Source: a virus. Taken from it: 24,878 nucleotides of DNA. The notes under the pieces are model-generated. The model saw only the letters and a list, made by a program, of their open reading frames with translations. It did not search any database and was not told the DNA's origin. Where the stretch lies: IMG/VR virus record IMGVR_UViG_3300030098_006832, positions 1 to 24,878 of that record. The stretch is one strand, 5' to 3'. This document shows, piece after piece, positions 4,787 through 24,318 of this stretch; position 1 is the first letter of the stretch, and each line of letters begins with the position of its first letter. Both the position numbers and the translations under genes were made by a program.

Positions 4787-6175
4787 ATGGGAAAAAGTAG
4801 AAAACCATCAAATTCAGAAGCTTTTACAGCCCGTGCGCGGAATGGCATGGACGCTTTTTCGTATTATAAATTTAGAAAATTATACAAAAGTATAGACTTC
4901 TCAGACCTTCAGCCAGACTATGGAGTGCACGGAGCAGGGATTGATGACCTTGCAATGCCAAGACCGATTGACTTATGGTATGAAAAGCCTTATTTTGGCA
5001 GATACGACCTAAATGGTAACCCGATATACATATTAGAAAAGCATCTCAAGCAATTACCTGTGCCTATGGGGAGAGACTCAACAATTCTTGCTGTAAATTT
5101 TGTTGTAGATGCTTTTCAAGATTTGCAGAGGCATTTCGCGAAAGCGTTAGCATCGAATAAAATAAAACCCAGTTTTATGCTATCCAAACTGCCTGTCACA
5201 CGAGCGCACATGAGCCCAGACAAATTGCACCAAGAATATATCGGCAAGTTGTTTGAGGTTTTCATCTTATCTTACTTGGGGACCAACAATTTGCATAAAA
5301 AGATCAGAGGATTTTCAGATTTTATGAATTATTTCAATGATTTTTTTAGAGATTCTGGACAAAATCTGCCTTTTACATTTTCTAGTTTTTTAGGCTCAAA
5401 AAGATGCCCATCGAATGTGTGTGGTTTGATTCTAGACATGAAAGAAGTAAGCTTTTCTAATGATGCCAAAAAAGTGAATGATTTGCTAGGGCGAGATGAA
5501 TTTTCTTTTTATGCGAGTTCTGCTAGAAATCATGGATTTATGGTATCCAAAAACGCTCCATGGCGTTTAGTGGCTGACGTTAGTTCACCGCAAATGAAAC
5601 AGTATATGTCAAAATATGACACCACTTTAGACGAAAATAATTTTTTCAAGAAATACTATGCCGAGGCTTACATCGCAGACATTGAAATCATGCTGAAAAA
5701 CATAGTCAGCTATTACAACAATTACATAACATCTAGACCGTATACGAGCAAAACATACCATGTTTATAGTCCGGGCGAAATTGGAACAACTAAAGAAAAG
5801 ATGAAAACAATAACGCGCAACATGGTACGTCAAAAAACCAGTCTAAAAAATATATTTAGAACTTACGGCATTGACGATATATTGAATTTTTATTTTACAA
5901 TAAAATGCTATGAAACCAACGCAAAACAATTACTAAAAGATAAAGAAAACATCGTTGCAGAAGCAGTAAGCAGAAAAGAGAGTGTAGGTCTGCCCTTCGC
6001 ACTCAGTTACTTAAATAGCAAAATTACAGAACAAGTAAAAATAAATTTGACTATTGGCTCTGAGTATGTTAAAGGTAATAATGAAAAAGCTAGACGTTTG
6101 TCAAATTCTCGAAAACCACAAGATAAAGAGCCAAATATAAAAGATGTTATTTCAGGCGATTACAACAGAAAATAA
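4787..6175 (+). CDS. Unassigned protein, probably structural
   Basis: This is a 462-residue basic protein with many Tyr, Phe, Lys and Asn. It has no signal peptide, no clear membrane helix and no catalytic motif that I recognise. Distinctive segments are RPIDLWYEKPYFGRYDLNGN (about 60-80), ILAVNFVVDAFQDLQRHFAK (about 103-122) and APWRLVADVSSPQMKQYMSK (about 260-280). The tail after residue 430 is Lys/Arg/Asn-rich and looks disordered. GAGGGT at 4770-4775 precedes the ATG. The last 32 bases overlap the next gene. Placement at the end of the baseplate block suggests a virion or assembly role; this is inference from position. Confidence 0.5.
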   Translation: MGKSRKPSNSEAFTARARNGMDAFSYYKFRKLYKSIDFSDLQPDYGVHGAGIDDLAMPRPIDLWYEKPYFGRYDLNGNPIYILEKHLKQLPVPMGRDSTILAVNFVVDAFQDLQRHFAKALASNKIKPSFMLSKLPVTRAHMSPDKLHQEYIGKLFEVFILSYLGTNNLHKKIRGFSDFMNYFNDFFRDSGQNLPFTFSSFLGSKRCPSNVCGLILDMKEVSFSNDAKKVNDLLGRDEFSFYASSARNHGFMVSKNAPWRLVADVSSPQMKQYMSKYDTTLDENNFFKKYYAEAYIADIEIMLKNIVSYYNNYITSRPYTSKTYHVYSPGEIGTTKEKMKTITRNMVRQKTSLKNIFRTYGIDDILNFYFTIKCYETNAKQLLKDKENIVAEAVSRKESVGLPFALSYLNSKITEQVKINLTIGSEYVKGNNEKARRLSNSRKPQDKEPNIKDVISGDYNRK

Positions 6176-7328
6176 AGAAATAATCTATACTAATAGTAGA
6201 ATTTATACCGATATCATCCCAGAGCTTACAAGAACTTGGTCTTATTGCCCCTCCTTAGATAATGGAAACATAGAATATGCAGAATTTCGCTGCGCCGGTC
6301 TGACTCTCGACGAAGTTTGCCCCGAGCATATTAGGGATAGATGGGAATTGGCAAAAGAGGAAGTTAAGAGTCATTGTAGAGCATGTATTGAGAGCAGGAT
6401 TGATATAACAGGTGGTAAATTTTATGATTTTCTACCCCCAGCAGCATTGTTGGAGTACCTGCGAACAAAGGACGAGATAACGCAATATGTTTTTGATAAT
6501 TTTCCTAAGCCTGAAAACTATGATTTCTTGTTTGAGTTACAAAAGGTGTTGGCAAAAATAGAAACTAATCGCGTCAAGCTAGATTTGACCCCGTTGAAAA
6601 ACAAGAGGCACGATTTCCGCACTAACCAATTTTACAATAAAGTTAGAAGACTAAAGCCTTATGTTAGGTACAACTTATTTGGCACAAAAACCGGTCGCTT
6701 GACAACTAAAAAGGGTAGTTTTCCTATTCTGACAATGGACAAAAATTATAGACAAATATTGACCCCCCAAAATGATATTTTCGTTGAATTGGACTACAAT
6801 GCTGCTGAGTTGAGAACACTTCTACATATGTCCGGTGAGGACCAGCCACAACAAGATATTCATGATTGGAATATGAGTAATATATTTCCTCAAATCAATG
6901 ATCGCGAGGCGGCAAAAAAAAGAGTGTTCTCTTGGCTCTACAATCCAATTGCAGAGGATAAAGATCTTGAGCGATTCTACAATCGAAGCTTGGTATTAAA
7001 AAAACATTGGGATGGGAATAAAATTACAAATCCTTTTGGGAGGCAAATTGAGGCAGATGCAAAACACGCTTTGAACTACATAATACAAAGCACAACTTCT
7101 GATTTGTTTTTGCGGAGAATTTTAGAATTGGCAAAGTTACTAGAATCAAAAAAGTCGTTTATTTCATTTTTGATTCATGATAGTGTAGTCATTGATTTAG
7201 ATAAGAGTGAAAAACACCTCATACAAGAAATTGCAGACACCTTTGCTAAGACTGATTTTTCTAAGTTTTTGGTAAACATGAAGGCAGGAAAGAATTACGG
7301 AGAAATGAAAGAAATATGCAGAATATAG
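6144..7328 (+). CDS. polA-like: Family A DNA polymerase, stand-alone polymerase domain
   Basis: The 394-residue length is close to one PolA polymerase domain alone; no 3'-5' exonuclease domain is present. Signature motifs appear in order. An RYNLFGTKTGRLTTKKGSFP segment corresponds to the T.TGRLSs..PNLQ region. Motif A is VELDYNAAELRTL with Asp217. The O-helix is R254-x3-K258-x3-F262-x3-Y266, so the dNTP-binding residues are kept, but the usual Gly after Tyr is Asn. Then come NPFGRQIEADAKHALNYIIQ and motif C, FLIHDSVVID, with His345-Asp346. The canonical HDE is HDS here, so the Glu is replaced. The protein is probably an active DNA polymerase, but divergent and without proofreading. An in-frame TAA at 6138 makes this ATG the earliest start. 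A bacterial-type DnaE polymerase lies 11 kb downstream. Confidence 0.85.
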   Translation: MLFQAITTENKEIIYTNSRIYTDIIPELTRTWSYCPSLDNGNIEYAEFRCAGLTLDEVCPEHIRDRWELAKEEVKSHCRACIESRIDITGGKFYDFLPPAALLEYLRTKDEITQYVFDNFPKPENYDFLFELQKVLAKIETNRVKLDLTPLKNKRHDFRTNQFYNKVRRLKPYVRYNLFGTKTGRLTTKKGSFPILTMDKNYRQILTPQNDIFVELDYNAAELRTLLHMSGEDQPQQDIHDWNMSNIFPQINDREAAKKRVFSWLYNPIAEDKDLERFYNRSLVLKKHWDGNKITNPFGRQIEADAKHALNYIIQSTTSDLFLRRILELAKLLESKKSFISFLIHDSVVIDLDKSEKHLIQEIADTFAKTDFSKFLVNMKAGKNYGEMKEICRI

Positions 7329-8188
7329 TTGGTTTGGGATCAGCAGGGTGCAATATTGCTAAAAGTTTTGCAAAGTACCCCGAGTATACTATTAGAACGA
7401 TTGATTGTGTTGAGCCCTCGGGCGACGAGCACTTTAGAATCAAGAAATGTGATTCTCACGAAGAATACGAAGCGGCAGTCCCCGACATGTCTGACTTCTT
7501 TTCTCACATCAAGGCAGTTGATGAGGTGCTTTTTATTATTGGCGGCTCCGGTGAGATCAGCGGGGCTTCTTTATCAATCTTGCAACAAATAAACCACGCC
7601 AGATTGCATGTGCTTTACATTAAGCCAGATATTTCACTTTTGAGCGAGGTAGGGAGATTAAGAGAAAGGCTCGTATATAATGTTCTTCAAGAATATGCGA
7701 GATCGGGCAAATTTGAAAGAATAATTCTCATAGATAACCCCAAGCTCGATGAAACAATGGGAGGAGCACCAGTAATTGGTTATTACGACCAATTGAATAA
7801 AATGATAGCGTCAACAGTTCACATGATCAACGTCTTTGACCACACCGACCCAGAGATTGGTACAATTTCTTCGCCCCTCGAAGTGTCCAGAATTATTACG
7901 ATTGGTATGATGGATATAGAAACTGGAGAAGAAAAATTATTTTTTTCATTGACAAATGCAAGAGAGAAGAGTTATTATTACGCCATCAACTACGAAAAGT
8001 TGAAAAAGGACAAAGAATTATACAAGGGCATAACAGTTCAAATGAAAGATAAAGTAGAAGATGGTGGCGCAAGGATAGCTTATGGCATCTATTCTACAAA
8101 TTATAGTTCAAATTATTGCTATGTCGTTGCTAGAAGTTCTATGATTCAAGGTTTAGTTTTGGAGGAAAACAATGTTGAAAACAATTAA
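7316..8188 (+). CDS. Divergent FtsZ/tubulin-like GTPase candidate
   Basis: This 290-residue protein begins almost at once with IVGLGSAGCNIAKSF, matching the first nucleotide-binding loop of FtsZ/tubulins (VxGxGGAGxN). Residues 70-90, VDEVLFIIGGSGEISGASLS, occupy the place of the tubulin signature loop (GGGTGTGxA) but are degenerate. Residues 99-105, VLYIKPD, then a helix, then RIILIDNPKLDETMG (135-149), follow the FtsZ order of VVTKPF, helix and IPND.LL. Residues 155-180 resemble the long central helix with an Asn (QLNKMIAST) and an acidic loop (FDHTDPE). Phage tubulins such as PhuZ form filaments that position replicating DNA; TubZ segregates plasmids. Whether this one binds GTP or polymerises is unknown. 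The gene overlaps the polymerase by 13 bases. Confidence 0.62.
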   Translation: MQNIVGLGSAGCNIAKSFAKYPEYTIRTIDCVEPSGDEHFRIKKCDSHEEYEAAVPDMSDFFSHIKAVDEVLFIIGGSGEISGASLSILQQINHARLHVLYIKPDISLLSEVGRLRERLVYNVLQEYARSGKFERIILIDNPKLDETMGGAPVIGYYDQLNKMIASTVHMINVFDHTDPEIGTISSPLEVSRIITIGMMDIETGEEKLFFSLTNAREKSYYYAINYEKLKKDKELYKGITVQMKDKVEDGGARIAYGIYSTNYSSNYCYVVARSSMIQGLVLEENNVENN

Positions 8189-8432
8189 TGCTTATGTAGG
8201 CACTTTTGAGAAGAAAACCGGTGAAGAGAGATCTATGCGCTTTGTAAAGATTTCGGACTTACCAGAGGGGTTTATGGATTCACAAACTAAGGGCGGTCAA
8301 CAGAGAAAACTGTCTGAGGGTAACGAACTGGTTTGGGACTTGGATAAAAAACAATTCAGAGTCTTTAACTGGAACACAGTAAAAGGCGATGTTACACAAA
8401 TTACTAATTTTCGTGTTGACAGCCTAATTTAG
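8172..8432 (+). CDS. Small conserved-type phage protein of unknown function
   Basis: This is an 86-residue protein with a strong GGAGG site at 8160-8164, overlapping the previous gene by 17 bases. The sequence is compact and probably all beta. ERSMRFVKISDLPEGFM is followed by GQQRKLSEGNELVWDLDKKQ and FRVFNWNTVKGDV. I have an impression of similar small proteins, sometimes described as SH3-like barrels, in T4-type phages of marine bacteria, but the function is not known to me. No signal peptide, cysteine cluster or catalytic residues are visible. It is the last gene before the promoter of the SSB-recombinase unit. Confidence 0.7.
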   Translation: MLKTINAYVGTFEKKTGEERSMRFVKISDLPEGFMDSQTKGGQQRKLSEGNELVWDLDKKQFRVFNWNTVKGDVTQITNFRVDSLI

Positions 8433-8501: not shown

Positions 8502-9245
8502 ATGGGAATTGATTTAGATAAAATTAGACAACGTAAACAAGCGTTGGAAAACAAAGGAGGCGCTGGAAACAATAACTTCTGGCGTCCACAAGATGGCGAC
8601 CAATCCATTCGGATTGTCCCAACACCAGATGGTGATCCTTTTAAGGATTACTTCTTTCACTACAACTTAGGTAAAACTCCGGGTTTTTTATGTCCGAAGA
8701 AGAACTTTGGAGATAACTGTCCTGTGTGTGAATATGCGAACAGTTTGTATAACCAAGGGACGGAAGACGCACAAAAGGCGGCAAAAGGCTTGTTCGCTCG
8801 ACAACGCTTCTTCTCACCGGTATTAGTTCGTGGGGAAGAAGCTGAAGGAGTTCGAGTTTGGGGTTATGGGAAGATGGCTTATGAGTCTCTAATCAATCTC
8901 GTGCTAAACCCAGAGTATGGGGACATTACTGATGCTGAAGAAGGCACCGACATTGTTCTTAACTATGGAAAACCACCGGGAGCACAATTCCCGCAAACTA
9001 AACTTCAACCTCGTCGGCGGTCTTCACCGCTTTGCCAAGATGGTCCAGAGAAGTGTGCAGAACTGCTGGATAATATTCCAGATTTTGATGACTTATTTGA
9101 ACGAAAGACAAGCGAAGAGGTCGGGACCCTGCTAGATAACTTCTTAGAGGGCGGTGACGATGAGGAGACCACTGAGGTAAAACAGTACAAAAAGGCTGAC
9201 GAATCTTCTTCGGTTGATGAAGCATTCAATGAACTTTTAAGCTAA
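8502..9245 (+). CDS. Single-stranded DNA-binding protein, T4 gp32-like
   Basis: This is a 247-residue protein. After a basic N-terminus (DKIRQRKQALENKGG) it has FFHYNLGKTPGFLCPKKNFG and NCPVCEYANSLY. This gives His53-x10-Cys64-x8-Cys73-x2-Cys76, matching the H-x12-C-x9-C-x2-C zinc site of T4 gp32 in order and nearly in spacing. The C-terminal 60 residues are acidic and Ser-rich, as in SSBs whose tail recruits replication proteins. It covers single-stranded DNA during replication and recombination. The strong AAAGGAGAGG site before the ATG suits an abundant protein. The recombinase gene follows after 16 bases, the usual functional partner. Confidence 0.87.
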   Translation: MGIDLDKIRQRKQALENKGGAGNNNFWRPQDGDQSIRIVPTPDGDPFKDYFFHYNLGKTPGFLCPKKNFGDNCPVCEYANSLYNQGTEDAQKAAKGLFARQRFFSPVLVRGEEAEGVRVWGYGKMAYESLINLVLNPEYGDITDAEEGTDIVLNYGKPPGAQFPQTKLQPRRRSSPLCQDGPEKCAELLDNIPDFDDLFERKTSEEVGTLLDNFLEGGDDEETTEVKQYKKADESSSVDEAFNELLS

Positions 9246-9261: not shown

Positions 9262-10365
9262 ATGGGAGCTAAAAAAGCTGGCAGGCTTTCTATTGATGAT
9301 ATGAGAAATCTTATCAACAAGAAAGCTGGTGTGCAAGTTGCACACAACCTAAACAAAGAAAATCCAACAGAGGTAACAGACTGGATTCCTACTGGTTCCC
9401 GTTGGCTCGATTCTATCATCTGTCGGGGTCGATTGGCTGGTATTCCGGTCGGTAAGGTGACAGAGATTGCTGGATTGGAGGCAACTGGTAAATCATACAT
9501 GGCAGCACAGGTCGCTGCCAACGCTCAAAAGATGGGTATTGATGTGGTTTACTTTGACTCGGAATCCGCCATCGATCCCACCTTTTTAGAGAGGGCAGGC
9601 TGTGATGTCAATACTATTTTATATGTTCAAGCTCAGTCTGTTGAGTTTGTGCTCGAAACTATCGAGGAACTTTTGGGTTCTAATGAAAATCGGATGCTTT
9701 TTATCTGGGATTCTCTTGCTCTTACACCTGCTATTTCCGATGTGGAAGGAGACTTTAATCCACTTTCTTCCATGGCAGTAAAGGCAAGAATTTTGGCTAA
9801 AGGCATGTCGAAACTGACCGTTCCTATTGCCAATAGTCAATCAACCTTCTTGGTCTTGAATCAGTTGAAGAGTAATATCACTAGAAGTCCAAGCGAGGCT
9901 TTGACAACCCCTTATATGACACCCGGAGGAAAGGCTATGATTTATGCCTACTCATTGCGTGTCTGGTTGACTGGTCGCAAGGCAAAAGCTTCATTCATCA
10001 CTGACGAAAAAGGTTTTCGTATTGGCTCTGAGGTGAAGGTGAAACTGGAGAAGAGTAGGTTTGGAACGCAGGGTCGCCAATGCAACTTTAAGATTCTGTG
10101 GGGCGACGAGATCGGCGTTCAAGATGAAGAAAGCTGGCTGGAGGCAATCAAATCTTCAGACAATGTGATCCAATCAGGTGCTTGGTATCAACTCGTTCAC
10201 GAGGACGGGACCACTGAGAAGTTTCAGGCTGCTAAGTGGAAAGAAAAGCTTCAGAATGAAAAGTTCAAAACTCGGGTCCTACAGATTATGGACGAAGAGA
10301 TTGTCATGAAGTTTGACACTCGCCAAGGCAACGCTGAAGACTTCTATGAAGAAAAGGATGAATAA
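9262..10365 (+). CDS. uvsX: RecA/UvsX-type recombinase
   Basis: This is a 367-residue RecA-fold ATPase. The segment WIPTGSRWLDSIICRGRLAG leads to a Walker A, GLEATGKS, at residues 71-78 (RecA has GPESSGKT). A Walker B-like strand, RMLFIWDSLALTP, lies at about 145-157. FLVLNQLKSNI and TTPYMTPGGKAMIYAYSLRV fit the switch and L2 region of UvsX-like proteins. It should form filaments on single-stranded DNA and catalyse strand exchange, driving recombination-dependent replication and repair. AGAGGAGAG sits just before the ATG. Length and sequence agree better with phage UvsX than with bacterial RecA; no C-terminal bacterial RecA tail is seen. Confidence 0.94.
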   Translation: MGAKKAGRLSIDDMRNLINKKAGVQVAHNLNKENPTEVTDWIPTGSRWLDSIICRGRLAGIPVGKVTEIAGLEATGKSYMAAQVAANAQKMGIDVVYFDSESAIDPTFLERAGCDVNTILYVQAQSVEFVLETIEELLGSNENRMLFIWDSLALTPAISDVEGDFNPLSSMAVKARILAKGMSKLTVPIANSQSTFLVLNQLKSNITRSPSEALTTPYMTPGGKAMIYAYSLRVWLTGRKAKASFITDEKGFRIGSEVKVKLEKSRFGTQGRQCNFKILWGDEIGVQDEESWLEAIKSSDNVIQSGAWYQLVHEDGTTEKFQAAKWKEKLQNEKFKTRVLQIMDEEIVMKFDTRQGNAEDFYEEKDE

Positions 10366-16090: not shown

Positions 16091-16829
16091 AAACAACTGC
16101 ACACTTATTCTAAATAAAGTTAGCCCACCTGAAATCTATGAAGCTCAAGATCTTGAGACATGGAACCAAATAACATTCTTGCTTTCCATGGCTGGGAAGA
16201 TCCCGATGTCCGATAAAGTTTCGACAATCAGAATAATTGAAGAAGACAAAAAGATAAAAGCTTTTACATCATCAAATAGAATGATTGAGTTTGTTTGTGA
16301 TAAAGTCTTTGTCTTTGATGACGAAAATGTTGAAGGTCTTCCCGTTCCGACGACTAAGCACAAGAACCCCAAGAAGAAGATTATGGACTGGGTTAATGTG
16401 AGAGCGGGGATGCTCCATGAGTTTGAATTCATAGAGACAGAAGAAGAGTTTGTCAGCGAAGTCCACTTTTATAAATCACCTCGGATTGACGGAGATCATG
16501 AACACAAAGATTTAGTCGCTATCTCGTATTTGACAGACGAACAAATAAAAGACCACTCATACTCAGACCTCATGACCTTGTACAAAACGAAAGAGGTAAT
16601 GAAGTCCCACGGCATCAGGGGACCAAGAAACGGCAGAGATCCTAACAACCCAGAGAAGTACAAATACTATGATATAAAATTAGAAATGAATCGACGCGAA
16701 ATAAAGAAACTGCACATGGATTCATACGAAGACACAGACTTCATTTCCTTTTGTAAAAAGGATACTTACACCGAAATGAATGAATATATTTCAAAGCTCC
16801 ATAATTATACTGAAGGTGGTGCAGGATGA
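16023..16829 (+). CDS. Unknown protein with Rossmann-like N-terminus
   Basis: This is a 268-residue protein. It starts with KIVIGSSLESVLFASRNNCT, a strand, glycine turn, helix and strand, as in dinucleotide-binding proteins, but without GxGxxG. The middle part, FVFDDENVEGLPVPT and VSEVHFYKSPRIDGD, and then DLVAISYLTDEQIKDHSYSD, gave no family I recognise. The last 80 residues are charged and helical. GAGG at 16009-16012 fits the ATG. Four bases overlap the next gene (ATGA), so these two are translationally coupled. It sits with a Met/Gly-rich and a nucleotidyltransferase-like gene in front of DnaE. Function unknown. Confidence 0.7.
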   Translation: MKKVSTPKIVIGSSLESVLFASRNNCTLILNKVSPPEIYEAQDLETWNQITFLLSMAGKIPMSDKVSTIRIIEEDKKIKAFTSSNRMIEFVCDKVFVFDDENVEGLPVPTTKHKNPKKKIMDWVNVRAGMLHEFEFIETEEEFVSEVHFYKSPRIDGDHEHKDLVAISYLTDEQIKDHSYSDLMTLYKTKEVMKSHGIRGPRNGRDPNNPEKYKYYDIKLEMNRREIKKLHMDSYEDTDFISFCKKDTYTEMNEYISKLHNYTEGGAG

Positions 16830-17263
16830 TGTCATCTTCAAAGGGGGGCAGAAGAATGTCTAGTGCAGGAGCAGTCGGTTCAGGGGGCGGTGGAGGTGCA
16901 GCAGCAGCGGCACCAGCATCCAGTCAGAGAGTCACACCATCAGATGGTGCGGCACCAGCAAACAATAATAACGACCAAGGTGTTGAGATGGGGGGAACCC
17001 CAGACGGTGGAAACAGTGGTCAATCTATCAACATTAATATCACTAATGAGGTCAGTTCTTTTCAAAACATGAGTTCGGAGCAAAGCCTTCAGATTGGAGG
17101 CGGGTCTGAAATGGGACAAATGGGCGAATCCAATCAGATGGACATGGAAAAGATGATGAAGTTGATTATGTTGATGATTATCATGAAGATGATGGAAAAA
17201 ATGATGGAACAATTGGGTGGCGGAGCCGAAGGCGGCGCGTCAATGATGGGAGGTGGGGGATAA
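16826..17263 (+). CDS. Gly/Met-rich low-complexity protein
   Basis: This is a 145-residue protein with no family I recognise. Residues 1-100 are Gly/Ala/Ser/Pro/Asn-rich and look disordered, with SININITNEVSSF as a possible strand (67-79). Residues 105-130 (MDMEKMMKLIMLMIIMKMME...) form a helix in which nearly half the residues are Met. This is amphipathic or membrane-active, or could be an oligomerisation element. The end is GGASMMGGGG. Start choice: the first ATG overlaps the previous stop; a second ATG follows immediately. The stop TAA overlaps the proposed ATA start of the next gene. Codon bias toward Gly/Met is real at protein level, not a single-base repeat. Confidence 0.6.
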   Translation: MMSSSKGGRRMSSAGAVGSGGGGGAAAAAPASSQRVTPSDGAAPANNNNDQGVEMGGTPDGGNSGQSININITNEVSSFQNMSSEQSLQIGGGSEMGQMGESNQMDMEKMMKLIMLMIIMKMMEKMMEQLGGGAEGGASMMGGGG

Positions 17264-18135
17264 GATCTCCTTTTCACTTAGCAGGTGTTGTCCCTCTCGC
17301 GGGGGAAAAATTAGATTTCAATTTTCCGTGGCATGATTCCATGCAACCAATCGGACCAGACTATTTAGCTGTGGAGAGAGCAGTCTTAGAGTGTGCTTGG
17401 GCTGGATGTGAAACAATATGGCTTGTGTGTAATGACGACATGCAGCCTCTGGTTCGCTCTAGGCTTGGCGAATACGTTATTGACCCTGTTTCCATCGGTA
17501 GGCTGAACAAGTACCCTTCTGAATCAAGAAGAAAAATACCAATATATTACGTTCCTATACACCCAAAAGATCTCGGCAAGAGGGATTGTCTGGCTTTCAG
17601 TGCACTGTACGGTGCTCTAACCTCATACCACGTCAGCAATAAGATAAGCAAGTGGGTTGTTCCAAGTAGATACTATGTAGCTTTTCCCTACGGAGTCTAC
17701 GACCCAGAAATACTCAGAGAACATCGCCTAGACATTTCTAGTGACAATTCCTTTTTTCTCTCCAGCGATGGAAAGACAGTTGCTGATGGGGAATACCTTG
17801 GCTTCACTTTTGATGAGGAGGAATATAAAAAATATAAAAAAGTTATTATGGATGAGGGCACCGGTTATAGACCCAAGGGAACTGCCTTTGGGGATGAAGA
17901 TGTGTTGCCCTTAGAAGAAAGATGGAGTGCTGTTCATTTTAAGCTTGACACAGTATTTAGATCTGCTAGAATAGCTGAAGCAAAAGTAGTTGAATTACCA
18001 TGGTACAACAACATAGGCTCTTGGCAAGGACTGAAAGATTATTTAGCCTCAGAGGTAGAGTTAGAAAAGCCAAACAAGCTAATTCTTTCAAGTAGGCAGT
18101 GGAGCAAGATAGGAGAAAGTATTGAAGAAGAGTGA
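17260..18135 (+). CDS. Nucleotidyltransferase-like (GT-A-like) protein with probable non-AUG start
   Basis: The first ATG in this frame is at 17341, but the sixty bases before it encode AGVVPLAGEKLDFNFPWHDS. This continues smoothly into SMQPIGPDYLAVERAVLECA and AGCETIWLVCNDD. That layout, an initial strand and loop, a long helix and then a strand ending in NDD, recalls the N-terminal half of sugar-nucleotide pyrophosphorylase-type GT-A folds. The glycine/arginine signature of true pyrophosphorylases is absent. The frame is open upstream with no ATG, GTG or TTG. An ATA at 17260 has GGAGG (17249-17253) six bases before it and overlaps the previous stop as ATAA. I therefore place the start there; 17341 is the conservative alternative. 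Later segments include VPSRYYVAFPYGVYDPEIL. Function is uncertain. It overlaps DnaE by 14 bases. Confidence 0.6.
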   Translation: MRSPFHLAGVVPLAGEKLDFNFPWHDSMQPIGPDYLAVERAVLECAWAGCETIWLVCNDDMQPLVRSRLGEYVIDPVSIGRLNKYPSESRRKIPIYYVPIHPKDLGKRDCLAFSALYGALTSYHVSNKISKWVVPSRYYVAFPYGVYDPEILREHRLDISSDNSFFLSSDGKTVADGEYLGFTFDEEEYKKYKKVIMDEGTGYRPKGTAFGDEDVLPLEERWSAVHFKLDTVFRSARIAEAKVVELPWYNNIGSWQGLKDYLASEVELEKPNKLILSSRQWSKIGESIEEE

Positions 18136-21100
18136 CATTCCATTCGTAGGGTTACACGCACACTCTGTGGCGGGTTCTTTTTTTGATGGCTTGGGTTTCC
18201 CCGGCGAGCATATGGATAGCGCCTTTGAGAATGGCATGGATGCCTTGGCTCTAACAGACCATGGCAACATGAATGGTCTTAGCTATCAGGTTGACCACGC
18301 CAAGAAAATGATGGAAGAGGGTAAAAACTTCAAGCCTATCTTTGGTGTGGAGGCGTACTTTATTCCTTCTGTCAAGGATTGGAAGAAAGAACTGGAAAAG
18401 GAAAAAGACTCAAAGAAAAAATCTAAGTCTAGTGGTCTCGTAATTGAAAACGAGGGTGCGTCAAAGAGTAAGAAGAGCAAACTAAACAAACGGAACCACC
18501 TAATCCTACTGGCTCAGAATCAAACTGGATTGAGTAATATATTTAAGATGGTTTCTGATTCATACACTAACGATAATTTCTATCGCTATCCTCGTATGGA
18601 TTACGACCTTTTGACCAAGCACAATGAAGGGGTCATCGCTGCTTCTGCATGCTTGGGCGGCGTATACGCTGGTAACTATTGGGACAATCGGGACATGGGC
18701 AAGGACGCTGTTATTCAAAGCATGCGCCGAACCACAGAGCGCATGATTGATATCTTTGGCGACCGCTGGTATGGAGAATTGCAGTGGAATAATGTCCCCG
18801 AGCAGCACGAGTTGAATCAGTACATCATCCAACTACACCACGAGTATGGCATACAGCTAATCTCTACTGCTGACAGCCACTATCCAAACAAAGATGCATG
18901 GCGCGATAGGGAACTCTATAAACGTCTGGGCTGGCTTGGCAAGAGCAGCCCAGATTATTTATCCTCTGAACTTCCTGAAAGTGTTGAGGATATCGGATAT
19001 GAACTATATCCTAAGAATGGCGACGAGATGTGGCAAGCATACAAATACTATTCTGAAAAAGTCGGCGCATCTTACAGTGACAAGATGATCGAGGAGTCCA
19101 TCTTACGAACACACGATATCGCACATAATAGAATCGAAACGTACATGCCAGACAACACGGTTCGATTACCTAGTTTTGTTGTACCAGATAAACAATCAGC
19201 ATCAGAAGCTCTCCGTAAGTTTAGTGAAGATGGTCTCGTGAAGCTCGGGCTAATGAACAAAGAATATTCAAATAGATTGGCTCTAGAGATGGACGTCATC
19301 AGCAAGCGAGGATTCGACGAATACTTTTTAACGATGAAGAGCATCGCAGATAAAGCTACGGACTGTCAACTCGTCGGCTCCGGCCGCGGCTCTGCTGCCG
19401 GATCTCTGGTTGCATATGCTCTGGGTATCACACAGATTGATCCTATCAAATATAAGTTGCAGTTCGAGAGGTTCATGACTAAGGATCAAACGGATTATCC
19501 TGATATCGATTACGATGTTTCGGATCCAATGGAACTAAAGGAAATGCTGATTGATGATTGGGGTCGCAATACAGTTGTACCCATCTCGAACTTCAACACG
19601 CTACAACTTCGCTCACTTGTAAAGGACATCTCCAAGTTCTACGGTGTGCCATTCACAGAGGTCAACCCTGTCACATCAAAGATGTTGAAGGAGGCGACTC
19701 CACTAGCCAAGAAAGCACATGGAATCAAGGCAGGTGTTTACACACCAACCTTTGAGGAGCTAAAGGAATACTCAGAATCACTCAAGACATTCCTTGCGAA
19801 ATATCCTCATATCGCCAGCCATATTGACGTCATTTTTGGACAACCGAGATCTATTAGTCGTCATGCTGGCGGCGTTGTTATCGGTGAAGATTTGGACAAG
19901 TATATGCCACTTATAAACAGCGGTGGCGTTGTACAAACTCCATGGTCAGAAGGACAGAATGTCAGGCACTTAGAGCCTATGGGCTTCATTAAGTTTGATA
20001 TCTTGGGCTTGGCTTCTCTAAGAATGATGGAGGGTGCAATCAGACATATCCTCAAGAGACATCACGGTATTGAGAAACCTACTTTTGAGGACGTAAAAGA
20101 TTATTATGATACAAAGCTCCACCCAGAGAAGATCGACTTGAATGACCAGAAGGTTTATAAGAATGTTTTTCATAGAGGCAAGTGGGCTGGTATCTTCCAG
20201 TTCACAGAGGGTGGAGCACAGGACTTTTGCAAGAAGGCAAAGCCGAAGAGTGTTATTGACATCGCTGCTATCACTAGCATTTATCGACCGGGACCACTTA
20301 GCGCCAAGGTGGATAAGATGTATGTCAAAGCAATGAGAAAGCCCGAGGGGGTTGAGTATGCAAATGATATTGTGAAAGAAGTGACCGAAGAGACATATGG
20401 ATTCTTGATCTTCCAAGAGCAGATTGCTCTCCTCGCGCACAAGCTGGGTGATGGTTTGTCACTAGACGAGGGTAACGCTCTCCGAAAGCTGCTGACTAAG
20501 AAAGGGACCGGAAAGACACAACAAAAGAAAGACAAGATTTATAAGAAGTTTGTTTCAGGCTGTATCAAGAAAGGATTGACAAAGGGCAAGGCGCAAGAGC
20601 TTTGGCAAACATTCGAGTATTTTTCAGGGTATGGCTTCAATAAGTCACACGCTGTCTCTTACTCGGTGCTTTCATATCAGTGTGCTTGGTTGCTGAACTA
20701 CTATCCAGCAGAGTGGATGGCTGCGTTCTTGGACAAAGAACCAGAGTCCAGAAAGGAAAAGGCGATTGCGATTGCAAAGCAGTTTGGTTTCAAAGTCGAA
20801 CCGCTAGACGTCAACAAGTCAGGGGAGGTTTGGGAGATTAGCGATGATGGCAAAACTCTCATCCAGCCACTAACCTCTATCAAGGGCTTGGGTGGAGCAG
20901 CCATGGAGCAGATTCTAGAGCATCGCCCCTTCACTAAAGTGGAGGACTTCCTTTTCAATGAGGAAATGGTATATTCCAAGTTGAACAAAAAAGCTCTTGA
21001 TGTTTTATGTCGGGCAGGTGCACTGAAATGTTTGATGGACAATAGATTCAGCGGTGAGAAGCATTTCTGGAGTGCAGTGGCTGTGATGCGCCCTCGCAAA

Positions 21101-21526
21101 GAGAAGAACTTATTAGAGAACATTGAGAAGTATAGGGACGAGGGCGACTTTACCAACTACGAAAAGATCGAACACCTCTCCAGCCTAACAGGTGCTTTCC
21201 CCCTTAGTCTCGTTATGGACGATGATGTGATGGCTAGGTTAGCTGAGTTGCATATCCCACCGATATCTGAATATGATGTTGACTTGGGAGCCGCATGGTT
21301 TATTCCTAGAAAAGTGAATATTAAGAGGACAAAAAACGGGAAAGAGTATTACATATTGGAGGTGATTGATTCTAATAATGTTTTGACTTCAATCAAATGT
21401 TGGGGAGTCAACTCTAAAAAAGACAAGATTGCAATCAATAGACCTTACATGGGAAGGCTAGAATACGATGAGCAATGGGGCTTTAGCACTAGATCGATCA
21501 GCAGAAACTTTAGACTTTTAGGATAA
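18122..21526 (+). CDS. dnaE: DNA polymerase III alpha subunit, DnaE type, with intact PHP domain
   Basis: This is a 1134-residue bacterial-type replicative polymerase. The TTG start has AGGAGA at 18111-18116. The N-terminal PHP domain keeps the nine-residue metal site as I read it: His12, His14, Asp22, His47 (LTDHGN), Glu77 (GVEAYF), His126, Cys177 (SACLGG), Asp251 and His253 (TADSHY). A Lys/Ser-rich insert (85-124) interrupts it. The polymerase core has GSGRGSAAGSLVAYAL (about 420-435), PDIDYD with Asp461 and Asp463, and KFDILGL with Asp626, matching the E. coli catalytic triad D401/D403/D555. FSGYGFNKSHAVSYSVLSYQ follows. The C-terminus has a helix-hairpin-helix region and an OB-like segment (VNIKRTKNGKEYYILEV). 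A PHP of this type can proofread in Thermus DnaE, so no separate epsilon subunit may be needed. Confidence 0.97.
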   Translation: MKKSDIPFVGLHAHSVAGSFFDGLGFPGEHMDSAFENGMDALALTDHGNMNGLSYQVDHAKKMMEEGKNFKPIFGVEAYFIPSVKDWKKELEKEKDSKKKSKSSGLVIENEGASKSKKSKLNKRNHLILLAQNQTGLSNIFKMVSDSYTNDNFYRYPRMDYDLLTKHNEGVIAASACLGGVYAGNYWDNRDMGKDAVIQSMRRTTERMIDIFGDRWYGELQWNNVPEQHELNQYIIQLHHEYGIQLISTADSHYPNKDAWRDRELYKRLGWLGKSSPDYLSSELPESVEDIGYELYPKNGDEMWQAYKYYSEKVGASYSDKMIEESILRTHDIAHNRIETYMPDNTVRLPSFVVPDKQSASEALRKFSEDGLVKLGLMNKEYSNRLALEMDVISKRGFDEYFLTMKSIADKATDCQLVGSGRGSAAGSLVAYALGITQIDPIKYKLQFERFMTKDQTDYPDIDYDVSDPMELKEMLIDDWGRNTVVPISNFNTLQLRSLVKDISKFYGVPFTEVNPVTSKMLKEATPLAKKAHGIKAGVYTPTFEELKEYSESLKTFLAKYPHIASHIDVIFGQPRSISRHAGGVVIGEDLDKYMPLINSGGVVQTPWSEGQNVRHLEPMGFIKFDILGLASLRMMEGAIRHILKRHHGIEKPTFEDVKDYYDTKLHPEKIDLNDQKVYKNVFHRGKWAGIFQFTEGGAQDFCKKAKPKSVIDIAAITSIYRPGPLSAKVDKMYVKAMRKPEGVEYANDIVKEVTEETYGFLIFQEQIALLAHKLGDGLSLDEGNALRKLLTKKGTGKTQQKKDKIYKKFVSGCIKKGLTKGKAQELWQTFEYFSGYGFNKSHAVSYSVLSYQCAWLLNYYPAEWMAAFLDKEPESRKEKAIAIAKQFGFKVEPLDVNKSGEVWEISDDGKTLIQPLTSIKGLGGAAMEQILEHRPFTKVEDFLFNEEMVYSKLNKKALDVLCRAGALKCLMDNRFSGEKHFWSAVAVMRPRKEKNLLENIEKYRDEGDFTNYEKIEHLSSLTGAFPLSLVMDDDVMARLAELHIPPISEYDVDLGAAWFIPRKVNIKRTKNGKEYYILEVIDSNNVLTSIKCWGVNSKKDKIAINRPYMGRLEYDEQWGFSTRSISRNFRLLG

Positions 21527-22663: not shown

Positions 22664-22705
22664 ATGAACAATAAAGCAAATGCAGCGAGGTGGAACAATG
22701 GTTAA
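22664..22705 (+). CDS. 13-residue leader-type open reading frame
   Basis: ATG at 22664 has a strong GAGGAGA site (22652-22658). It encodes MNNKANAARWNNG and stops at TAA 22703-22705. The stop lies just past the preferred start of the next gene (22698), so a ribosome ending here is placed on that start. A translational-coupling leader is possible; a chance short frame is also possible. Confidence 0.35.
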   Translation: MNNKANAARWNNG

Positions 22706-23762
22706 TCATCCAGATTTATATTCAGCACAACAGTTTTTTTCTAGATGTCCACTTTATGTCAGTTTTGATGATGTATTGCTGGTACCACATTATTCAGATA
22801 TAGAAAGCAGGAAATCACTATCAACTAAGAACAGTTTAGGCAATGTCCCCCTTGACCTGCCCATCATTTCTAGCCCAATGGATACTGTGACAGAGGTTGC
22901 CATGGCTTCTGCTATGGATGCTCACGGGGGCTTGGGAATTATCCATAGATATAATTCTATTCAAGACCAAGCTGCTCTTGTAAAAGATTCAAAAGAGAAA
23001 GGCTTGAAAAACATTAGCGCAGCCATTGGCGTAACTGGTGATTACCAAGAGCGAGCACGAGAACTAGTTAATAGTGGTGCTAATGTTCTATGCGTTGATG
23101 TAGCGCACGGTCATCACTCTATGATGCGTGATGCCTTGAAGCACTTGAAGGAGGAGTATGGGGGAGATACTCACATTATGGCAGGAAATGTCGCCACTGG
23201 TCAAGGCAGTCTTGACCTTGCATCTTGGGGGGCTGACTCTATTCGTGTCGGCATTGGTGGTGGTTCAATTTGTTCGACGAGACTAGTAAGTGGTCACGGA
23301 GTACCCACCTTGCAATCTATTATTGATTGCGTGACTGCTGGTTGTCCTGTTCCGATTATTGCAGACGGAGGTATGAAGACTAGCGGAGATGTCGTCAAGG
23401 CTCTTGCTGCTGGTGCTGACTTTGTTATGCTCGGCTCAATGCTTGCTGGGACTGACCAAGCACCCGGACAAGTATTCGACAACGGTAATAAAAAATATAA
23501 AGTCTACCGTGGTATGGCTTCAAGCGAAGCCCAAGTAAACTGGAGAGGTAAAACCTCTACACCAGAAGGAATCTCTACAACTATCCCATACAAGGGAGAT
23601 GTTAGCATTATTTTGGATGACCTTAAGGGAGGTATTCAAAGTGGGATGTCTTACTCGGGCGCTAGAACCATTCAAGAATTACAGGCAAAAGCTAGCTTCG
23701 TTCAGATGACTTCTGCGGGAAGGGGAGAGAGTCATACGCATATTTTATCGAGGAACAAATGA
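22698..23762 (+). CDS. IMP dehydrogenase / GMP reductase family enzyme
   Basis: This is a 354-residue TIM-barrel enzyme. Family landmarks: LTFDD-like FDDVLLVPHYSD, SPMDTVTE.AMA, GGLGIIHR, DVAHGH, MAGNVAT and GIGGGSICSTRLVSGHGVPT with catalytic Cys192. IADGGMKTSGDVVKALAAGA, YRGMASSEAQ, PEGI...IPYKGDV and ELQAKASFVQMTSAGRGESH follow. No CBS regulatory insert is present. The flap after YRGM is short and lacks the Arg-Tyr pair that activates water in IMPDH, which makes GMP-reductase-like chemistry (GMP to IMP) or altered activity possible. The C-terminal SAG..ESH segment, however, is IMPDH-like. ATG 22698 is chosen over 22680 because GAGGTGG (22687-22693) stands right before it and the conserved part starts soon after. 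It belongs with RNR and dUTPase in nucleotide supply. Confidence 0.92.
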   Translation: MVNHPDLYSAQQFFSRCPLYVSFDDVLLVPHYSDIESRKSLSTKNSLGNVPLDLPIISSPMDTVTEVAMASAMDAHGGLGIIHRYNSIQDQAALVKDSKEKGLKNISAAIGVTGDYQERARELVNSGANVLCVDVAHGHHSMMRDALKHLKEEYGGDTHIMAGNVATGQGSLDLASWGADSIRVGIGGGSICSTRLVSGHGVPTLQSIIDCVTAGCPVPIIADGGMKTSGDVVKALAAGADFVMLGSMLAGTDQAPGQVFDNGNKKYKVYRGMASSEAQVNWRGKTSTPEGISTTIPYKGDVSIILDDLKGGIQSGMSYSGARTIQELQAKASFVQMTSAGRGESHTHILSRNK

Positions 23763-24088
23763 GTGTATATGGGGAAGCAGGAAAAAAGATAGTTTTCTAT
23801 GATTCCGAAAAGAATCATGCAGAGCTAAAAATTAGATTGCATTATGATGGTCTAACTCAAAGTGCGTTCTTCAGAGAAATAGTTGCTGGTTATGTTTCGC
23901 AAGACGAAAATATTATAAGTTTTATTGAGAAGGTCAAGCACGAGAAAAAAACACAAAGCAAAGAAAAGATGAAAAAAATCTCAAAGATGAATGCGGCAAA
24001 GAAGAAAACGATCCAAAAATTCGCACTCGATCAAGATGAAATTGAGAACATATTTGATATTTTGGAGGAAGAATGCCCAGAGATATAG
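23759..24088 (+). CDS. Ribbon-helix-helix-like small protein
   Basis: This is a 109-residue, Lys-rich protein that overlaps the previous stop as ATGA. ELKIRLHYDGLTQSAFFREI is a strand followed by two helices, like Arc/MetJ-type ribbon-helix-helix proteins, which bind DNA as dimers. The middle (EKKTQSKEKMKKISKMNAAK) is a basic helix. The end, DEIENIFDILEEECPEI, is hydrophobic and acidic, a shape that T4 late transcription proteins use to bind the sliding clamp; this last likeness is only suggestive. It is directly followed by a sigma-like gene, so a transcription role is plausible. Confidence 0.6.
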   Translation: MSVYGEAGKKIVFYDSEKNHAELKIRLHYDGLTQSAFFREIVAGYVSQDENIISFIEKVKHEKKTQSKEKMKKISKMNAAKKKTIQKFALDQDEIENIFDILEEECPEI

Positions 24089-24318
24089 AATTTGATTGTG
24101 CAAGCGTTTGCATGAGAACTGGTCAGAAATGTTGCAATAAAGATTGCAGGCAATGGCTAGATTACGAACAGGATTTAAACTGCACATTGGTGGCTGTAAG
24201 AAAAAATGGAAAGATGTCTCTAAGAGAGACTGCTGACCGTTTAGGAGTCAGTTTTGTAAGAGTAAAGCAAATACAGGATAAGGCTGTAGAAAAATTGACA
24301 GGAAAGATTGACTTTTAA
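24073..24318 (+). CDS. Short sigma factor region 4-like protein with cysteine cluster
   Basis: This is an 81-residue protein. Residues 48-76, MSLRETADRLGVSFVRVKQI and DKAVEKL, match sigma70 region 4.2, the helix-turn-helix that reads the -35 element. Regions 2 and 3 are missing. The N-terminal half has six Cys (9, 13, 20, 21, 25, 37) with EFDCASVCMRTG and KCCNKDCRQW, spacing suited to a zinc or iron-sulphur site. GGAGG at 24064-24068 fits the ATG. It could redirect RNA polymerase in the late phase or act as an anti-host factor. It is probably a transcription regulator; the mechanism is inferred. Confidence 0.72.
   Translation: MPRDIEFDCASVCMRTGQKCCNKDCRQWLDYEQDLNCTLVAVRKNGKMSLRETADRLGVSFVRVKQIQDKAVEKLTGKIDF

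Follow-up and report, generated by a model that had tools for sequence, protein, structure and literature searches.

The gene at positions 7316 to 8188 (+ strand) of a 24,878-base virus record, analysed over its whole length and referred to here as the window, encodes a protein that, by fold and by profile homology, represents a divergent branch of the FtsZ/tubulin superfamily, whose members usually form filaments at the expense of GTP. The gene is single-copy and belongs to the core of the DNA-replication module in a lineage of uncultured phages. The protein is possibly a minimal pseudo-GTPase tubulin with a core of about 275 amino acids and no tail, which would bind guanine nucleotide, hydrolyse it with low efficiency, if at all, and serve as a scaffold of the replication complex. 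A probability of roughly 0.45 is given to this reading. Phage tubulins have so far been discussed mostly as dynamic filaments in nucleus-forming jumbo phages and in plasmid-like phages. Here, a tubulin fold without its catalytic loops is a core replication-operon gene of an uncultured phage lineage, which hints that the fold may have been co-opted as a permanent component of the viral machinery that copies DNA.

Gene and Genomic Neighborhood

The tubulin-fold gene has an ATG start and encodes 290 amino acids followed by a stop. Compared with a relative (L048), dN is 0.068 and dS is 1.11, and the dN/dS of about 0.06 indicates purifying selection. Together with 161 distinct family members, this bears out the initial annotation, which had taken the open reading frame to be a gene for a 290-residue protein. 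That annotation had also placed an overlap with a polymerase gene here. The first 13 nucleotides of the tubulin-fold gene are indeed shared with the 3′ end of a family A DNA polymerase gene, polA (6144 to 7328, + strand; 394 amino acids; Pfam DNA_pol_A, E 5.8e-16), in which no exonuclease domain was found. A possible ribosome-binding site for the tubulin-fold gene (ggaga, 7299 to 7303, + strand) lies inside polA.

At its other end, the gene overlaps by 17 nucleotides with the start of a gene for a small WYL_2-like (Sm/SH3-like) protein (8172 to 8432, + strand), which was identified by a weak match. This is followed by genes for a gp32-like single-strand DNA-binding protein (SSB; 8502 to 9245, + strand), a UvsX/RecA-like recombinase (9262 to 10365, + strand), an exonuclease, a DnaB helicase, and a ribonucleotide reductase.

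Fold and Superfamily Membership

Neither Pfam nor PHROGs recognises the window protein, so these profile libraries miss part of the superfamily, and phmmer gave no significant match in the PDB. A family alignment was needed because these single-protein searches gave nothing. With 37 family sequences as input, the AlphaFold2 model of the window protein has a pLDDT of 90.8 and a pTM of 0.89; residues 282-290 have a pLDDT under 50. Structure prediction with a fold search had been named at the outset as the test that could refute a tubulin identity, and it returned a two-domain tubulin/FtsZ fold. The top 50 Foldseek matches in the PDB are all TubZ, FtsZ, or tubulin, with E 2.9e-12 for TubZ and 3.5e-12 for FtsZ. 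By VIA-align, the model matches CetZ with a Z of 25.1 (4.1 Å, 265 residues), TubZ with 23.6 (3.7 Å, 286 residues), and FtsZ with 22.2 (3.6 Å, 272 residues), and the range over the full length against CetZ, TubZ, FtsZ, and tubulin is 21-25. A search of viral predicted structures gave, among its best matches, proteins of other phages labelled as FtsZ, cell division protein, or tubulin. L039, a relative with 30% identity, was predicted separately. Its model (pLDDT 94.0) matches the same tubulin families with a Z of 23.1.

Profile comparison points the same way. With hhalign, residues 2-277 of the family profile align with a profile of ten FtsZ sequences (E 2.7e-5, score 44.4). The best of 120 column shuffles scored 30.1, the reversed profile 15.9, and an unrelated polA profile 16.4. 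The initial annotation had proposed a profile search of this kind, and its suggestion of a new FtsZ/tubulin branch is upheld. It is nearly certain that the protein has the predicted two-domain tubulin fold, with a nucleotide-binding domain, a core helix H7, and an activation domain, and that it is related at superfamily level to FtsZ and tubulin.

Matches of members to library models are less clear. The NCBIfam model with the largest number of matching members is FtsZ, weakly, in 7 of 82 with a best E of 2.8e-4. Pfam PF00091 has no match in the window protein at its curated cut-off; in the family, 5 of 82 have one with an E of 0.1 or below, the best being 0.01. With a best E of 6e-5, Pfam TrkA_N matches 11 of the 82 members, so that the sequence alone would be ambiguous; the structure is not. 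That the protein is another Rossmann protein of the TrkA-N or dehydrogenase type, and no tubulin, is very improbable. The TrkA_N matches are what the N-terminal GxGxxG would be expected to give, but only N-terminal stretches of TrkA_N or alcohol dehydrogenase align by sequence, whereas the match to tubulins extends across both domains of the model, and the FtsZ profile covers nearly the entire chain. A TrkA_N or alcohol dehydrogenase identity was rejected, with the top structural matches all being tubulins.

Family and Core-Gene Status

Relatives turned up at 46 loci in a first scan of viral contigs and at 48 in an alignment-based scan. Both scans had been seeded with the protein's own motif, VYNVLQE(Y), and the search was repeated through the neighbors for this reason. 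Alignments of polA and of SSB were used, and the best 80 loci were taken for each query, which samples near relatives. VYNVLQEYxRS was considered as an invariant motif and rejected as partly an artefact of the seed; in the loci found through polA or SSB, VYN varies and QEYxRS holds. The same viral population may recur across samples, and the 152 loci found through neighbors hold 123 distinct proteins of at least 240 amino acids. The family has 161 distinct members in all. The uncultured tailed phages that carry it form a widespread group, with contigs of up to 190 kb. No description of the family was found in the openly accessible papers searched.

Among the best 80 loci per query, the tubulin-fold gene lies between polA and SSB, on the same strand, in 132 of the 132 loci that have both neighbors. 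Eight more loci have one neighbor and no tubulin-fold gene. In seven of these, the contig or the stored stretch stops at or near that neighbor. The exception is L143, where the 2.9 kb upstream of SSB carry a methyltransferase-like gene among others but lack both polA and the tubulin-fold gene. All 14 long contigs (76-190 kb) have one tubulin-fold match, one of them partial at the contig end. The coding sequences of polA and the tubulin-fold gene overlap in 64 of 116 loci, and a gap of more than 300 nucleotides, commonly about 305, separates them in 37. In at least one of these loci (L087:2650-3003), a small MazG-like open reading frame can be read between the two genes. The contig of L076 (G013) carries, about 1 kb away from its intact copy, a short, degenerate second fragment of the tubulin-fold gene (69505-69645, model positions 204-250) with two stops.

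Another possible role is that of a decoy which is incorporated into the FtsZ filaments of the host, or caps them, and keeps the infected cell from dividing. Accessory genes for host takeover tend to occur patchily, which counts against this role, and the gene is instead inside the replication module in every one of the 132 loci. The protein also has little sequence in common with FtsZ. The decoy is considered improbable, even with an FtsZ-like fold remodelled at one end and with FtsZ-binding phage proteins known, such as T7 Gp0.4 (PMC13423816).

Conserved Loops and Putative Nucleotide Pocket

The family was mapped to Escherichia coli FtsZ by hhalign, and the element names H8 and H9 are our own assignments. 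Conservation was counted over 124 sequences, the window protein and the 123 proteins found through neighbors. The initial annotation had read an FtsZ/tubulin loop order from the sequence, and the alignment supports it: GLGSAGCN is T1, GGSGEISGA is T4, VLYIKPD is strand S5 leading into T5, and ILIDNPKL is S6/T6. The glycine loop T1 (residues 6-13, GLGSAGCN; 7331 to 7354, + strand) has G6 conserved in 97%, G8 in 98%, and G11 in 96% of the sequences. T6 (residues 139-144, IDNPKL; 7730 to 7747, + strand) places N141 (89%) opposite FtsZ N165, a residue of guanine recognition. In the core helix H7 (residues 156-175; 7781 to 7840, + strand), Y157 lies opposite FtsZ F182 and N161 (90%) opposite N186. 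H169 (96%) and N172 (94%) are also conserved, and the counterpart of FtsZ D187 is not. Y157 and N161 would recall the tyrosine and asparagine of beta-tubulin that hold the guanine.

The catalytic signatures are different. The motifs GGGTG[ST]G (T4), GAGxN (T3, gamma-phosphate), and NxDxxD (T7, catalytic) were each found in 0 of 161 distinct members, so the signature loop described earlier as degenerate is degenerate across the family. T3 (GAGAN) is gapped out in the alignment. Where FtsZ has T3 and then "PE", the protein has an acidic stretch, EEYE (residues 49-52; 7460 to 7471, + strand), with E49 at 93% and position 52 acidic in 124 of 124 sequences. The GGGTGTG of T4 has become roughly GSGxISG in the family. 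In the window protein, residues 77-83 (GSGEISG; 7544 to 7564, + strand; G77 89%) replace the GTG[ST]G phosphate loop. At the T7/H8 position (residues 176-192; 7841 to 7891, + strand), between H7 and S7, no column is acidic in more than 69% of the sequences, and no helix is predicted in the AlphaFold2 model, as is also the case at the H9 position (residues 200-216).

The C-terminal (activation) domain covers residues 193-278 (7892 to 8149, + strand). In most members, the chain terminates on a conserved IQ that directly follows the last strand, or a few residues away from that IQ. The C-terminal helix H11 and the tail of PhuZ and TubZ were not found in the family. The family has a signature of its own on helix H5, QEYARS (residues 125-130; 7688 to 7705, + strand). 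Over the 124 sequences, whose loci were not selected by this motif, R129 is present in 124 (100%), and Q125 and S130 are each present in 123 (99%). This helix would be the likeliest candidate for a partner-binding or core-packing signature.

Comparison with Known Tubulins of Phages and Bacteria

The protein should not be filed as FtsZ, TubZ, or PhuZ, because the GTPase signatures and the tail that define these proteins were looked for and are absent. PhuZ (phage phiKZ gp39 and phage 201phi2-1) is likewise a phage-encoded tubulin fold with a non-canonical T4. It hydrolyses GTP and forms dynamic filaments, and its C-terminus carries H11 and an acidic tail (PMC3678025; PMC4244570). The family described here differs in lacking the tail and NxDxxD, occurs in other phages, and adjoins polA and SSB. 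It has no significant sequence match to PhuZ: against the single PhuZ sequence of phiKZ, used without a profile, hhalign aligned only 30 residues (E 0.047). TubZ of Bacillus plasmids and phage c-st is among the best structural matches. Its chains have about 400 amino acids, and its C-terminal tail is needed for filament dynamics (PMC5322520), whereas the present family has neither a tail nor the canonical GTPase signature. FtsZ and CetZ share the fold, and FtsZ the profile homology, but the protein has about 15% identity to them, is without GGGTGTG, GAGAN, and NxDxxD, and has neither a helix at T7/H8 nor a tail like that of FtsZ. The FtsZ-like Tubulin_2 proteins (PF13809) are similar in that they, too, have a divergent tubulin fold and do not belong to the main family; they have large N- and C-terminal extensions (PMC9871819), unlike the present protein. 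Tubulin_2 is absent from the 25 listed Pfam families matched by 82 members.

Possible Function

The shared fold, with TubZ and CetZ among the closest, would allow the protein to be a GTP-driven cytomotive filament of the PhuZ/TubZ type that has a divergent catalytic loop and centres or segregates phage DNA. The part in placing or segregating replicating DNA that the initial annotation proposed is neither supported nor contradicted by the results. Known phage tubulins do position DNA (PMC4244570). The unusual T4 by itself is no proof of an inactive enzyme: the T4 of phiKZ PhuZ is GGASGST, and phiKZ PhuZ hydrolyses GTP (PMC3678025). However, a GTP-driven dynamic filament is unlikely because the family has lost the catalytic loop activated between subunits, together with the gamma-phosphate loop and the tail. 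The gene is also located in a replication module, and no TubR-like match was seen among its neighbors (polA, WYL_2-like, SSB, and UvsX). Given the loss of T7, T3, and the C-terminal tail, a static scaffold is likelier than a dynamic filament in the style of PhuZ or TubZ.

As a pseudo-GTPase scaffold, the protein would still bind guanine nucleotide through T1, T6, and H7, perhaps as a permanent structural ligand. Hydrolysis by the usual inter-subunit T7 mechanism would be impossible. The protein would form a platform, static or gated by nucleotide, on which phage replication proteins assemble, and not a dynamic spindle. We infer a bound guanine nucleotide because the T1, T6, and H7 positions are retained, and a replication function because of the constant placement between polA and SSB, often with overlapping reading frames. 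The case for guanine binding is built on a small number of aligned positions, and the loss of T3 and T4 could equally mean that no nucleotide is bound. A physical role in replication does not follow from gene order and overlap within the operon.

With no nucleotide bound, the protein could be a plain tubulin-fold adaptor or a processivity-type subunit of the adjacent polymerase. This, too, seems unlikely. The lost T3 and T4 and the strict co-localisation with polA agree with it, but the T1 glycines, N141, and N161 are conserved at about 90% or more, which is unexpected for an empty pocket. The distances of the tubulin-fold protein and polA correlate after removal of SSB (partial r 0.46), but no weight is placed on this correlation, as linkage by itself might produce it. 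Returning to the pseudo-GTPase scaffold, a more specific proposal is that a tubulin has ceased to be a cytoskeletal GTPase and now serves, without hydrolysis, as an obligatory subunit or scaffold of a viral DNA replication complex, fixed throughout a phage lineage. This is held as somewhat doubtful. Such a role for a tubulin fold was not found in the literature open to search. The family makes it testable whether a tubulin fold can work without GTP turnover and whether it can organise a replisome.

Distribution Outside the Lineage

No match to three family members was found by tblastn in the named-phage collection. Microcystis phage Mel-JY01 is the best SSB match among named phages. Mel-JY01 and its relatives possess a homologous module with a polA-like gene, SSB, RecA, an exonuclease-type gene, and a helicase, and the module of Mel-JY01 is without the tubulin-fold gene. 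In its polA homologue (L257:1590-2816), the catalytic motifs look altered, with DYDAFHIK for DYNAAELR and LYDAF for IHDSV. Judging from these residues, it may be a non-catalytic polymerase.

A recognisable tubulin-fold copy was absent from 37 of 37 sister-lineage viral contigs with a detectable polA. In 24 of 24 sister loci examined, the interval from polA to SSB holds a different conserved protein of about 130 amino acids (for example, L267:3637-4056). Because the sister module is without the gene and holds this other protein in the interval, the tubulin-fold gene marks one lineage, either through a gain in that lineage or through a loss from the sister. A copy that has diverged beyond recognition may be present elsewhere in the sister genomes.

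A pattern search for VLQEYARSG found no bacterial or archaeal relatives. Among relatives found through polA, the only one with the gene in a bacterial assembly is the chromosome of a metagenome-assembled genome labelled 'candidate division WOR-3' (CP070664.1). The phage module there (L258:4797-9829) is flanked by runs of 100 N bases. This occurrence is probably a phage contig that was binned or scaffolded into the bacterial assembly, and is not evidence of a host. A cellular origin of the gene was rejected, with the pattern search empty and this scaffold the only cellular record.

Other Genes of the Window

The window possesses two DNA polymerases. In addition to polA, there is a DnaE-type polymerase III alpha subunit with a PHP domain (18122 to 21526). 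The motif A, B, and C positions of the window polA (D217, R254, K258, Y266, and D346) are invariant in 20 homologues. Directly upstream of polA, in the window (4787 to 6175) and in many other loci, is a gene for a conserved protein with a KNAPWRLVAD motif; it diverges fast, with a mean column identity of 23%. An IMP dehydrogenase (guaB-like) gene (22680 to 23762; Pfam E 5e-107) represents a phage-encoded step of GTP synthesis, and any link between it and the tubulin-fold protein would be speculation. A small protein (24073 to 24318) with a match to sigma-70 region 4 (E 9e-8) is a possible phage sigma-like factor. The window also encodes a low-complexity protein of 145 amino acids (16826 to 17263) that is rich in Gly, Ala, and Met.
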